Position numbers and translations under genes: made by a program | Shown here: in pieces, positions 11,906 to 15,294 of the stretch | How positions within the stretch are numbered: position 1 is the first letter of the stretch | Layout of the letters: each line of letters starts with the position of its first letter | Origin: an uncultured Brevundimonas sp. | Lineage (GTDB): Bacteria; Pseudomonadota; Alphaproteobacteria; Caulobacterales; Caulobacteraceae | Direction of reading: 5' to 3' | DNA: 15,294 nucleotides | Assembly: GCA_946885435.1 (NCBI GenBank) | Contig: CAMPGL010000032.1 | Location: 1 to 15,294 of the forward strand | Notes under the pieces: model-generated | The model's database searches: none | Told to the model about the DNA's origin: nothing | What the model saw: only the letters and a program-made list of their open reading frames with translations

Positions 11906-12172
11906 TCAGGGCAGGGGCGCGAAGCTCTTTTCCTCGCGGAGCGCGGCGGCCTTGGCCACGACCATCGGGCAGCAGGCCTTCCAGTAGTCGGCGTCGTCGC
12001 TGCGGGCGGCGGCCAGGCGTTCGGCCGCCCGCAGACGGCGCGCCGCGGCGTTGGCCAGGAGCTTGGCGTGAAGCGCGCGGGGCGACGGATCGAGCACGAT
12101 GGGCGCGCCGGGGGTGGCGGCGGCGTCGGGACCTTGCGGGGCGATTTCGGGACGCTGGATACTGACGAACAT
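11906..12172 (-). CDS. Conserved-looking small protein of unknown function
   Basis: I do not recognise this 88-residue protein. I chose the ATG at 12172. The frame is open back to an ATG at 12253, but those extra 27 codons encode an improbable Arg-rich stretch. The N-terminal third is rich in Pro and Ala (MFVSIQRPEIAPQG). The middle is an Ala/Arg/Leu amphipathic helix (ALHAKLLANAAARRLRAAER), and the C-terminal part carries DYWKACCPMVVAKAAALREE, with two adjacent cysteines. GC-rich third codon positions support coding on this strand. It is convergent with the antiporter gene (6 bases between stops) and divergent from dnaG, so its promoter probably lies in the AT-rich region that holds the CtrA-type boxes. 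No clear Shine-Dalgarno precedes 12172, which leaves the start uncertain. Confidence 0.65.
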   Translation of the reverse strand: MFVSIQRPEIAPQGPDAAATPGAPIVLDPSPRALHAKLLANAAARRLRAAERLAAARSDDADYWKACCPMVVAKAAALREEKSFAPLP

Positions 12173-12226
12173 GGGCTTTGGCTTTGAAGTCCGGTCGGTC
12201 CGCCGTCCGCGGCCGCGCCGGAGACA

Positions 12227-12245
12227 GAGGCGCTTATGTCGCCTC
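12227..12245. promoter_or_regulatory. Small hairpin in the leader region of the minus-strand 88-residue gene
   Basis: GAGGCG (12227-12232) and CGCCTC (12240-12245) pair around a 7-base loop. On the minus strand this sits in the putative leader about 55 bases before the start at 12172. It carries a GAGGAGG-like sequence on that strand. Its role is unknown, and a 6-bp stem could arise by chance. Confidence 0.3.
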
Positions 12246-12269
12246 CTCGGCATGGTTAATCTTCAAAGC

Positions 12270-12278
12270 TGTGGATAG
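12270..12278 (-). promoter_or_regulatory. DnaA-box-like site
   Basis: On the minus strand the site reads CTATCCACA, matching the DnaA box TTATCCACA at 8 of 9 positions. It lies about 107 bases before the dnaG start, in an AT-rich stretch unusual for this window. Single near-matches occur by chance, so function is uncertain. Confidence 0.4.
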
Positions 12279-12323
12279 TTCCTCATTCTGACTGAAATTG
12301 GGCAATCTTTTCCTAGTGTTATG

Positions 12324-12338
12324 TTAACCTCTCGTTAA
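12324..12338 (+). promoter_or_regulatory. CtrA-type binding box 1 upstream of dnaG
   Basis: TTAA (12324-12327), seven bases, TTAA (12335-12338): a perfect match to the CtrA consensus TTAA-N7-TTAA of Caulobacter and other alphaproteobacteria. Relative to the predicted transcription start near 12385 it covers about -61 to -47. It is one of two such boxes separated by 6 bases. Confidence 0.7.
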
Positions 12339-12344
12339 TAGCGG

Positions 12345-12359
12345 TTAAGAAGAAGTTAA
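12345..12359 (+). promoter_or_regulatory. CtrA-type binding box 2, overlapping the dnaG -35 region
   Basis: TTAA (12345-12348), seven bases (GAAGAAG), TTAA (12356-12359): a second perfect TTAA-N7-TTAA box. It covers about -40 to -26 relative to the predicted dnaG start of transcription. CtrA would therefore touch the polymerase -35 contact region. Boxes 1 and 2 start 21 bases apart, two helical turns. Confidence 0.7.
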
Positions 12360-12370
12360 GCCTCGCCCGC

Positions 12371-12384
12371 GCTATACAGTCCCC
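12371..12384 (+). promoter_or_regulatory. Predicted dnaG -10 element giving a leaderless transcript
   Basis: GCTATACA (12371-12378) resembles the Caulobacter -10 consensus GCTANAWC and contains TATACA, close to TATAAT. Exactly 6 bases separate it from the GTG start at 12385, as at trxB. No Shine-Dalgarno is present. A TTAAGC at 12356-12361 may serve as a poor -35. Confidence 0.5.
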
Positions 12385-14250
12385 GTGCGCCTCGACGAAC
12401 GTTTCCTGGATGAGTTGAAAAGCCGGCTCCGCCCGTCCGAGGTGATCGGGCGGACGGTGAAGCTCAAGCGCCAGGGCCGCGAGTGGGTGGGGCTGTCCCC
12501 CTTCACCAAGGAGAAGTCTCCGTCGTTCTTCGTGAACGATGACAAGGGCTTCTTCCACGACTTCTCCTCGGGCAAGCACGGCGACGTCATCTCCTTCCTG
12601 CAGGAAACCGAGCGGCTGTCCTTCCGCGAGGCGGTGGAGCGGCTGGCCGGCGAGGCCGGCATGCAACTGCCTGCCGAGGACCCGCAGGCCGCCCAGCGCG
12701 AGCAGGTGCGGCAGGGCCTTCAGGACTGGCTGGAGCTGGCGGCGAAATATTTCGAGGCGTCGCTGCGCCGCCCCCAGGGCCAGGCGGCGCGGGACTATCT
12801 GGGCCGGCGGGGCCTGCCCGAGGATCAGTGGACGCGCTTTCGCCTGGGCTATGCGCCGGGATCGCGCACGGCGCTGAAAGATGCGCTGGTCCAGCGCGGG
12901 GCCAAGGTCGGCGATCTGGTCGAGGCCGGGCTGCTGATCCAGCCGGAGGACGGGGGCCAGCCGTACGACCGTTTCCGCGACCGGATCATCTTTCCAATCA
13001 CCGACACGCGCGGCCGGGTCATCAGCTTCGGCGGCCGGGCGCTCAATCCGGACGACCGGGCCAAGTACCTGAACGGGCCGGAGACGGCCCTCTTTCACAA
13101 GGGCGCCAACCTCTACGGCCAGGCGGAGGCGCGGCGCATCCTGGCCCAGGGCGGCGGCGACAGTCCGCTGGTGGTGGTCGAGGGCTACATGGACGTGATC
13201 GCCTGCCAGCGGGCGGGGATCGCGGCGGTGGCGCCCATGGGCACGGCCCTGACCGAAGAGCAGATGGAGCGGCTGTGGCGCATCACGCCCGAGCCGGTGC
13301 TGTGCTTCGACGGGGACGCCGCGGGCGTGCGCGCGGCCTGGCGGGCGATCGACCGCGCCCTGCCTCTGCTGAAGCCGGGGCGGTCGTTCCGCTTCGCGCT
13401 GCTGGCCGGCGGGGCCGACCCGGACGACATCCTGCGCGAAAAGGGCGCGGTGGGACTGCGCGCGGCCCTGGCCGACACGCAGGGTTTCGCCGATCTTCTT
13501 TTCCGCAAGGAGACCGAAGCCGAGACGCTGGATACGCCCGAGCGACGGGCGGGTCTGAAGGCCCGGCTGCGCCAGGCGGCGGCCCGCATCGGGGACAAGG
13601 ATCTGGCCGAGCAGTATCGCGCGGAACTGCTGGGCCGGTTCGACGGCCTGTTCGCCCGGCCGGCCCCGCCGGCGCGCGACGGCGGTCGGAGGTCGTGGGG
13701 CGGTCCGGCGCCGGCGGCGGCGCCCACGCAGGAAGGCCGCGCGGCCGCGCGGGCCCTGTCGCGCGCCATCGATCCGTTTTCCGCGGCCCTGGCCGTGACG
13801 GCGATCGAACACCCCGAACTGCTGGATGATCACCTTGAATCCCTGGGCGCGCACGGCTTCGGGGACGAGGCCCTGTCGGCGCTCGCGTCCGAGATCGTCA
13901 GCCTGAGACTGGCCTGGGACGAGGTCCAAACCCTTGACAGTGCCGCCCTTCGTCGCCATCTGGCGCGCTCGGGCTTTGAATCGTTAATGCGAGAGGTCGA
14001 GAAGGCGGCGGCGAAGTCCGGCGCGCCTGTCCTGGGCGGACACGCCCCCCTCGCCGACGTGACCGCCCGATGGTCGCAGGCTTTCGAGGCTCTGACGCGC
14101 ATGATGGCGTTGGAAGATGCCCTCGCATCGGCGAAATCCGAGGCTCATCTCGGACTCGACGACGAGGCGTTCCGCAGGCTGAAGGCCGAGCGCGATCAGC
14201 TCAGGCGAGCGATCAAGACAGGATCAATCTGGTCGTCCGCGGACCTTTGA
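12385..14250 (+). CDS. dnaG: DNA primase, with zinc-binding residues replaced
   Basis: DnaG makes RNA primers at the replication fork. The protein has 621 residues and starts at GTG 12385. The N-terminal domain aligns well with E. coli DnaG (VKLKRQGREWVGLSPFTKEKSP). However, the four zinc ligands Cys40, His43, Cys61 and Cys64 of E. coli are here Ser38, Thr41, Asp59 and Ser62. The polymerase core is intact: YDRFRDRIIFPI, GRVISFGGRAL, KYLNGPETALFHKG, the TOPRIM motif VVVEGYMDVI (from 13174), CFDGDAAG with the metal-binding acids, and DPDDIL. Beyond about residue 430 come an Ala/Pro-rich linker and a helical C-terminal region that should bind DnaB, ending RRAIKTGSIW near the stop. rpoD follows after 65 bases, the usual dnaG-rpoD order. 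The gene is predicted to be controlled by the CtrA-type boxes upstream. Identity is certain; the zinc loss is directly visible. Confidence 0.97.
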   Translation: MRLDERFLDELKSRLRPSEVIGRTVKLKRQGREWVGLSPFTKEKSPSFFVNDDKGFFHDFSSGKHGDVISFLQETERLSFREAVERLAGEAGMQLPAEDPQAAQREQVRQGLQDWLELAAKYFEASLRRPQGQAARDYLGRRGLPEDQWTRFRLGYAPGSRTALKDALVQRGAKVGDLVEAGLLIQPEDGGQPYDRFRDRIIFPITDTRGRVISFGGRALNPDDRAKYLNGPETALFHKGANLYGQAEARRILAQGGGDSPLVVVEGYMDVIACQRAGIAAVAPMGTALTEEQMERLWRITPEPVLCFDGDAAGVRAAWRAIDRALPLLKPGRSFRFALLAGGADPDDILREKGAVGLRAALADTQGFADLLFRKETEAETLDTPERRAGLKARLRQAAARIGDKDLAEQYRAELLGRFDGLFARPAPPARDGGRRSWGGPAPAAAPTQEGRAAARALSRAIDPFSAALAVTAIEHPELLDDHLESLGAHGFGDEALSALASEIVSLRLAWDEVQTLDSAALRRHLARSGFESLMREVEKAAAKSGAPVLGGHAPLADVTARWSQAFEALTRMMALEDALASAKSEAHLGLDDEAFRRLKAERDQLRRAIKTGSIWSSADL

Positions 14251-14315: not shown

Positions 14316-15294
14316 ATGACCGCTCAAGCGGAAACCCAAGAGCAGGAAAACACGCCCGACGGTCCCCTGCTCGACCTGACCGACGCCGGCGTCAAGAAGT
14401 TCATCAAGCAGGCCAAGGCCCGCGGCTACGTCACCATGGACGAGCTGAACAAGGTCATGCCGTCCGAGGAGGTCACGCCCGACCAGATCGAGGACACGCT
14501 GGCCATGCTGTCCGAGATGGGCGTCAACGTCGTCGAGGCGGAAGAGGACGCGCCGGAAGGCACGGACGTGGCCACCCGCGAGGAGACGGCCGTCGTCGAG
14601 ACGGAGTCCAAGCCGACCTACGATCGCACCGACGACCCGGTGCGGATGTATCTGCGCGAAATGGGCTCGGTCGAGCTGCTGAGCCGCGAGGGCGAGATCG
14701 CCATCGCCAAGCGCATCGAGGCCGGCCGCGACACCATGATCCGGGGCCTGTGCGAAAGCGCCCTGACCTTCGAAGCCATCATGGTGTGGCGCCAGGAGCT
14801 GGCCGAGGGCCGCATCCTGCTGCGCGAGGTCATCGACCTGGAAGGCACCTACGGCGGCACGCCCGTCGACAACTCCGTGCCGCGCCCCGAGGGCGAGGAG
14901 GAGCCGGAGCCGGAGCCCGCGGCCGAGGAAAAGCCGGAGGGCGACGAGGACGACGAGGATTTCGACGACGGCGGCGGCCTGTCGGTCTCGGCCATGGAGG
15001 CCGAGCTGCGCGAAGGCGTCATGGAGGTCCTGGACGCCGTGGCCAAGGACTTCGGCGCGTTCCGCAAGCTGCAGGACAAGCTGGTCGCGGCGCGGCTCGA
15101 AGGGACCGACCTGTCGGACAAGGAGCGCAAGACCTATCAGGCGCTGACCACCTCGATCTCCGACAAGCTGAAGACGCTGAAGCTGAACAACGCCCGGATC
15201 GAGGCGCTGGTCGACCAGCTCTACGCCATCAACCGGCGTCTGATGGGCCTGGAAGGCCGCCTGCTGCGCCTGGCCGACAGCTACGGCATCTCGC
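14316..15294 (+). CDS. rpoD: RNA polymerase primary sigma factor, 3' end missing
   Basis: The first 326 codons of the housekeeping sigma factor are present and the frame runs off the window. The ATG at 14316 has a GGAGA site 5 bases upstream. Residues of about 20-80 form region 1.1 (LLDLTDAGVKKFIKQAKARGYVT-like start, then MPSEEVTPDQIEDTLAMLSEMG). Region 1.2 begins at about residue 106 (DDPVRMYLREMGSVELLSREGEIAIAKRIEAG). The long non-conserved region includes FEAIMVWRQELAEGRILLREVIDLEG. It then has a strongly acidic stretch of Glu, Asp and Pro, about residues 190-220, typical of RpoD proteins in this group. The end of the window (LRLADSYGI) is still within that region, before the core regions 2-4. 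It sits directly after dnaG, as in many bacteria. Confidence 0.96.
   Translation, partial: MTAQAETQEQENTPDGPLLDLTDAGVKKFIKQAKARGYVTMDELNKVMPSEEVTPDQIEDTLAMLSEMGVNVVEAEEDAPEGTDVATREETAVVETESKPTYDRTDDPVRMYLREMGSVELLSREGEIAIAKRIEAGRDTMIRGLCESALTFEAIMVWRQELAEGRILLREVIDLEGTYGGTPVDNSVPRPEGEEEPEPEPAAEEKPEGDEDDEDFDDGGGLSVSAMEAELREGVMEVLDAVAKDFGAFRKLQDKLVAARLEGTDLSDKERKTYQALTTSISDKLKTLKLNNARIEALVDQLYAINRRLMGLEGRLLRLADSYGIS

Follow-up and report, generated by a model that had tools for sequence, protein, structure and literature searches.

Tandem CtrA-type boxes upstream of the DNA primase gene of a Brevundimonas: a candidate CtrA-activated dnaG promoter

Is the gene for DNA primase a direct target of the cell-cycle regulator CtrA in Brevundimonas? 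In Caulobacter, CtrA is known to block replication at the origin; control of the replisome genes is attributed to GcrA and DnaA. The question is raised by a stretch of 15,294 nucleotides from an uncultured Brevundimonas sp. (here called the window), in which two CtrA-type boxes precede dnaG. The reading to which we give a probability of roughly 0.6 is that the dnaG promoter would be a direct target of CtrA and, judged by the geometry of the boxes, one that is activated. CtrA would then be the reader of the boxes and activation would take place in CtrA-rich (predivisional) cells. CtrA control of promoters and of the origin is already known; as far as the sequence can tell, the novelty would lie in the target and in the arrangement. 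A search of titles and abstract openings in the open-licence literature turned up no work in which dnaG is placed under CtrA control.

The half-site array and the dnaG promoter

The dnaG gene (12385..14250, + strand, with a GTG start) was identified by a match of 425 bits to NCBIfam TIGR01391 and by the Pfam domains CHC2, DNAG_N, and Toprim. After 65 bases it is followed by rpoD, specifying the housekeeping sigma factor (14316..15293, + strand), which is cut by the end of the window; the two genes are possibly co-transcribed. An open reading frame (ORF) of 88 amino acids (11906..12172, - strand), for the product of which no match was obtained in Pfam or NCBIfam, is divergent from dnaG. The 212 bases between its start at 12172 and the GTG at 12385 contain five TTAA tetramers, and this intergenic stretch (12173-12384) has a GC content of 53 %, against 69 % for the whole window. 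One of the tetramers (12256..12259) is isolated. The others start at positions 12324, 12335, 12345, and 12356, with spacers of 7, 6, and 7 bases, and make up two exact TTAA-N7-TTAA boxes of the CtrA type, the starts of which are 21 bp apart, all of which agrees with the original prediction. Box 1 (12324..12338, + strand, TTAACCTCTCGTTAA) starts 61 bp 5' of the dnaG start codon, and box 2 (12345..12359, + strand, TTAAGAAGAAGTTAA) starts at -40, over the -35 place. The middle pair of half-sites (12335..12348, + strand) reads TTAA-N6-TTAA, a spacing that recurs at the ctrA locus in six genomes. The starts of successive half-sites are separated by 11, 10, and 11 bp, which puts all four on the same face of the helix.

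A -10-like element, GCTATACA, is located at 12371..12378 (+ strand), which places the predicted transcription start at about 12385, on or beside the GTG, so that the mRNA would be leaderless. It is relative to this predicted start that the 5' end of box 2 is at -40. The box covers the -35 place, as had been proposed, but that place holds no -35 hexamer: at spacings of 15-19 from the -10-like element, no hexamer matched TTGACA at more than 2 of the 6 positions, and a promoter scanner run on 12150-12450 did not return a sigma-70 consensus. Neither does a half-site overlap the -10, the arrangement of the CtrA-repressed class, the last half-site being located at 12356-12359 and the -10-like element at 12371-12378.

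Promoters that are activated in predivisional cells are described as having a full CtrA motif the 5' end of which is near -35, and CtrA half-sites over the -10 are described as repressing (PMC4287350). Activation is favoured here because box 2 has, relative to the predicted start, this published full-motif geometry and a -35 hexamer is not present. Phosphorylated CtrA would occupy the four half-sites as two neighbouring dimers, the one on box 2 is predicted to stand in for the missing -35 element and to activate transcription of the primase gene, and box 1 would raise the occupancy by cooperativity. With the CtrA-activated promoters of C. crescentus treated in PMC4287350, the window shares the perfect motif, the 5' end at -40 of the predicted start, and the poor -35 hexamer; it differs from them in its target, a primase gene, in having two adjoining perfect boxes, and in that its start is a predicted one. 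The pilA promoter of C. crescentus likewise combines a site at -35 with one or more sites upstream (PMC11264516). P1(2X) is an artificial construct in which 6 bp, as between the two boxes of the window, separate the -35 site from a second site upstream of it; the activity was similar, and a third site lowered it (PMC11264516). The natural pilA sites are reported to be imperfect, with site 2 located 31 bp upstream of site 1, and the upstream sites repress and delay (PMC11264516).

Conservation of the box among dnaG loci

The dnaG loci came from genome contigs, 80 of the 175 loci found there being used, and from a set of 131 genomes of the genus. A DnaG match was obtained in 129 of these 131; 30 loci were taken automatically, and 93 further stretches as well as that of the sister MAG were added. 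The 204 loci with the N-terminus of DnaG yielded 202 upstream regions, 138 of which are distinct, window and sister included; 14 of the 138, all from the genome contigs, are of Caulobacter type or otherwise outlying. At -70..-26, a box with no more than one mismatch was present in 37 of the 138 (35 of 136 when window and sister are set aside) and absent in the other 101. Perfect N7 boxes within 120 bp of dnaG occur in 12 of the 138 distinct upstream regions; nine of them start at -61 to -40 and those of L128, L159, and L087 further up. Elsewhere in the family a box with up to one mismatch within 120 bp was found in none of 70 sampled dnaG upstream regions (30 automatic ones and 40 chosen by hand among the rows listed, from 259 non-genus genomes searched, some of them the same records as the genome-contig loci), and 6 of these 70 carry GANTC at -30..-14. 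The box is thus conserved in a subset of relatives but not throughout the Caulobacterales. A perfect tandem (perfect boxes with a gap of 0-30) was found at dnaG in none of the 131 genus genomes, and is seen there only in the window. In the sister MAG (genome G001, locus L056 = L113), the DnaG of which is 96 % identical to that of the window over 420 residues, box 2 is perfect and identical to that of the window and box 1 has one mismatch.

In 25 of the 35 box-bearing relatives the second half-site is TAAA. The resulting form, TTAA-N7-TAAA, is plausible as a CtrA site since sciP of B. subvibrioides is reported to require a CtrA site the half-sites of which are TAAA and TTAG (PMC7987155). A DnaG tree of 86 rows, made by a quick method with a midpoint root, places window and sister outside the other 70 Brevundimonas-type rows, which group with a support of 99. 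The box, present in 28 of the 86 rows, takes 9 changes on this tree, against a mean of 23.9 after shuffling, and at least 5 of the 9 are forced by well-supported branches. These gains and losses indicate that the box is clustered but quickly gained or lost.

The box goes together with other features of the dnaG promoter, in counts that are not independent tests because the rows are related: a TAT -10 at -14..-9 is present in 35/37 box-bearing and 18/101 other upstream regions, a Shine-Dalgarno-like motif in 0/37 and 28/101, GANTC at -30..-14 in 25/37 and 2/101, a TGTGGA..GTTCC block in 32/37 and 9/101, and an inverted TCCACA..TGTGGA in 26/37 and 9/101. A YGAKTCK-type site is found in 23/37 and 0/101, numbers that should not be over-read as the GcrA of B. 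subvibrioides is described as having little preference beyond GANTC (PMC7987155).

The TGTGGA..GTTCC block (12256-12282 in the window) is located 115-129 bp 5' of dnaG in the 32 box-bearing upstream regions that have it. At its head is a DnaA-box-like sequence, TGTGGATAG (12270..12278, - strand), one base away from the textbook DnaA box, TTATCCACA. An input of DnaA at this block, via the inverted DnaA-box-like pair TCCACA..TGTGGA, is possible.

The box of the relatives starts at -54 to -50, 10-14 bp upstream of the place of box 2, in 34 of 35 cases, and in 25 of the 35 a GANTC is located between the box and the -10. The window contains no GANTC in 12173-12384 and so lacks the mark of a GcrA/CcrM-type promoter. 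An alignment of nine sequences sets box 2 against the single box of the relatives. Between this box and the -10 it has 13 columns that are missing from window and sister and that contain GAGTC in 5 of the 7 relatives aligned. In window and sister the distance to the -10 element is 26 bp from the start of box 2, instead of the 37-39 bp of the relatives, and 47 bp from that of box 1. As the lineage of the window is an outer branch, the 13-bp difference can be either a loss here or a gain elsewhere. Going by the alignment, absence of the 13 bp would set the CtrA box slightly over one helical turn nearer to the -10 and would swap a GcrA/CcrM input for a CtrA input. A review states that the primase gene of C. 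crescentus is under GcrA control (PMC2877005). The dnaG gene belongs to the same functional class as the GcrA/CcrM-controlled replication genes (PMC7987155, PMC2877005), and most box-bearing upstream regions have the GANTC of that class, unlike the window.

Origin-type arrays and the direction of control

CtrA was found in 6 of 6 genomes, the sister included, with 87-89 % identity to the C. crescentus protein, and TTAA-N6-TTAA is present in the ctrA locus of all six; an N6 motif is also reported for ctrA P2 of C. crescentus (PMC11264516). GcrA was present in all eight genomes tested. Perfect N7 boxes number 3, 6, and 8 in the whole genomes G001, G131, and G102, respectively, against 1, 3, and 1 for the reversed control pattern. 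Only the interval between hemE and the kinase-PPPase gene and that of dnaG carry a perfect box in all three. Although G131 and G102 were picked for having a dnaG box, the boxes in the hemE/kinase-PPPase interval are independent of that choice. Judged by their flanking genes, these intervals are probably the origins of the scanned genomes. Further perfect boxes neighbour fliF in G102, a gene for a 2-hydroxyacid dehydrogenase in two genomes, and other or unknown genes. Another perfect CtrA box of the sister genome (L111, 3200-3214), TTAACGACTCCTTAA, the spacer of which contains GACTC, is located before an unknown ORF of 124 amino acids.

In C. crescentus the hemE-COG1806 interval is the origin and carries five CtrA sites (PMC1914354). 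Of the 390 genomes of the family, 68 contain the four-half-site arrangement of the window, N7-N6-N7, when up to one mismatch is allowed, the reversed control being present in 8 of 390 rows, and the idea that the tandem is unique within the genus was dropped once one mismatch and the whole family had been allowed for. Going by the starts of the ORFs, 11 of the 20 array loci kept adjoin hemE, the kinase-PPPase gene, or both; Pfam confirmed both genes at L427, L440, and L452, the three loci tested. The other nine are the sister's dnaG, one place common to Caulobacter-like genomes (a label given for likeness of their DnaG to that of L068, Caulobacter ginsengisoli), and seven elsewhere. As 7 of the 20 are located at other places, the array as such is no proof of an origin-type function. 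Most origin arrays are held by G153-G176, which may, at a guess, be Asticcacaulis. Eight Caulobacter-like loci (L445-L451 and L453) share one N7-N6-N7 array before a gene the product of which starts with MFEF and is without a Pfam match at the one locus tested. The exact array also occurs in at least 120 stretches of viral contigs. A different TTAA-N7-TTAA tandem, with a gap of 19-20, is present in 4 of the 131 genus genomes (L212-L215), where it is located, by reading, between an ABC-ATPase-like and a small membrane-protein-like ORF.

The window resembles the Cori-type arrays beside hemE (PMC1914354, PMC11264516) in having several CtrA boxes with phased half-sites, in the N7-N6-N7 order (at most one mismatch) that is also seen beside hemE in other family genomes. 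It differs from them in that it is located on a gene promoter, flanked by the 88-amino-acid gene and dnaG rather than by hemE and the COG1806/kinase-PPPase gene, and has no half-site over the -10. At the Cori-type origin, CtrA is described as a repressor (PMC1914354, PMC11264516).

An unlikely reading, albeit the strongest of the alternatives, is that CtrA binds the array at dnaG but represses. CtrA~P would cover the promoter in G1/swarmer cells, as it does at the origin, and synthesis of primase would have to wait until CtrA has been cleared at S-phase entry. That origin-type intervals carry arrays of four half-sites with this spacing would fit, as would hemE Ps, which carries two CtrA boxes and is repressed (PMC11264516). 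The presence of GANTC beside the CtrA box in 25 of 37 upstream regions, against 2 of 101 others, points the same way, ctrA P1 with its GANTC and CtrA half-site being repressed by CtrA (PMC4287350). Speaking against activation, moreover, is the position of the box in the 34 relatives that have it at -54 to -50, outside the usual place of an activator. However, the window has no half-site over the -10, described as the usual place for repression (PMC4287350), and with box 2 in the place of a -35 hexamer, low activity is to be expected unless an activator is bound. As some activating effect is reported for hemE Ps in addition to repression by its two sites (PMC11264516), the effect of CtrA at dnaG could go either way; activation is favoured over repression by about two to one.

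It is improbable that another regulator, for instance DriD, exerts the main control at the -35 place, with a minor part for CtrA. DriD is reported to activate dnaG of C. crescentus after DNA damage from a site over the -35 of that gene, but this site is a 20-bp pseudo-palindrome (PMC12340889), whereas the sequence conserved here is TTAA-N7-TTAA.

Still less credit can be given to the view that the tetramers form an AT-rich upstream element, or have come together by chance, and have no specific reader. The intergenic stretch is indeed AT-rich for the genome, and 101 of the 138 upstream regions are without a box. Nevertheless, dinucleotide shuffles of 12173-12384 gave at least one box in 325, two boxes in 3, and the four-half-site array in 0 of 50,000 cases, and none of 200 shuffles of the whole window reached two boxes. 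The spacing is unlikely to be random, as was suggested at the outset; five TTAA placed randomly in 212 bp give two N7 pairs with P ~0.002. Among the 138 upstream regions, 12 have a perfect TTAA pair at spacer 7, against 0, 2, 0, and 1 at spacers 3, 4, 5, and 6 and none at spacers 8, 9, 10, 11, or 12. With one mismatch, within 120 bp, N7 was found in 45 and N6 in 32, other spacers giving 0-12; the N6 matches are, we think, largely N7 sites in another register. In the same 78 loci, 6 perfect boxes are present in 8.3 kb of dnaG upstream sequence and 4 in 545 kb elsewhere, a comparison to which little weight was given as it is unmatched for promoters. The box has a near-fixed distance to the -10 and tends to be accompanied by GANTC and by the TGTGGA..GTTCC block. 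A chance cluster and an AT-rich element were rejected on the spacer preference, the near-fixed spacing, and the shuffles.

It had also been suggested that the boxes might serve the divergent 88-amino-acid gene. This gene is conserved, with a homologue divergent from dnaG in 61 distinct upstream regions, 35 of which have the box. From the start of the box to the -10 of dnaG there are 37-39 bp in 31 of the 32 relatives with a recognisable -10 (48 in L148); the box-bearing L153, L202, and L203 do not have one. Among the upstream regions with the divergent gene, window and sister left out, the standard deviation of this distance is 1.7 bp (n=30), against 10.6 bp (n=33) for that to the start of the 88-amino-acid gene, which indicates that the box is phased to dnaG. 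That the boxes serve the 88-amino-acid gene, the start codon of which is 152 bp from the start of box 1, and are near dnaG by accident is the least probable of the alternatives.

The dnaG promoter and gene in the genus

Coming back to activation by CtrA, a wider proposal can be made tentatively, at odds clearly below even. An origin-type CtrA array may have replaced a GcrA/CcrM site at dnaG, such that one regulator would silence the origin and drive primase, and perhaps rpoD, stocking CtrA-rich predivisional cells for the next round; the dnaG promoter of Brevundimonas would then be a rapidly rewired node of DnaA, CtrA, and GcrA/CcrM inputs. If CtrA does control primase, a single switch would govern both initiation and the supply of primers. 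The naturally occurring variants (no box; one box with GANTC; two boxes without GANTC) lend themselves to a comparison of the way in which an essential replication gene is shifted from one cell-cycle clock to another by small indels.

The dnaG gene itself shows some peculiarities in other genomes. At a distance of either 22-30 or about 680-720 bases beyond dnaG, 11 genomes (G110, G129, G088, G040, G008, G031, G026, G122, G022, G100, and G006) have a second match to the C-terminus of DnaG, of about 105 residues and 64-71 % identity, which looks like a duplication of the C-terminal domain into a separate gene. In contig C5 of G014, dnaG matches in two pieces, one comprising residues 2-435 and the other residues 447-619, with about 250 bp between them, and in G033 the two pieces are located on different contigs.
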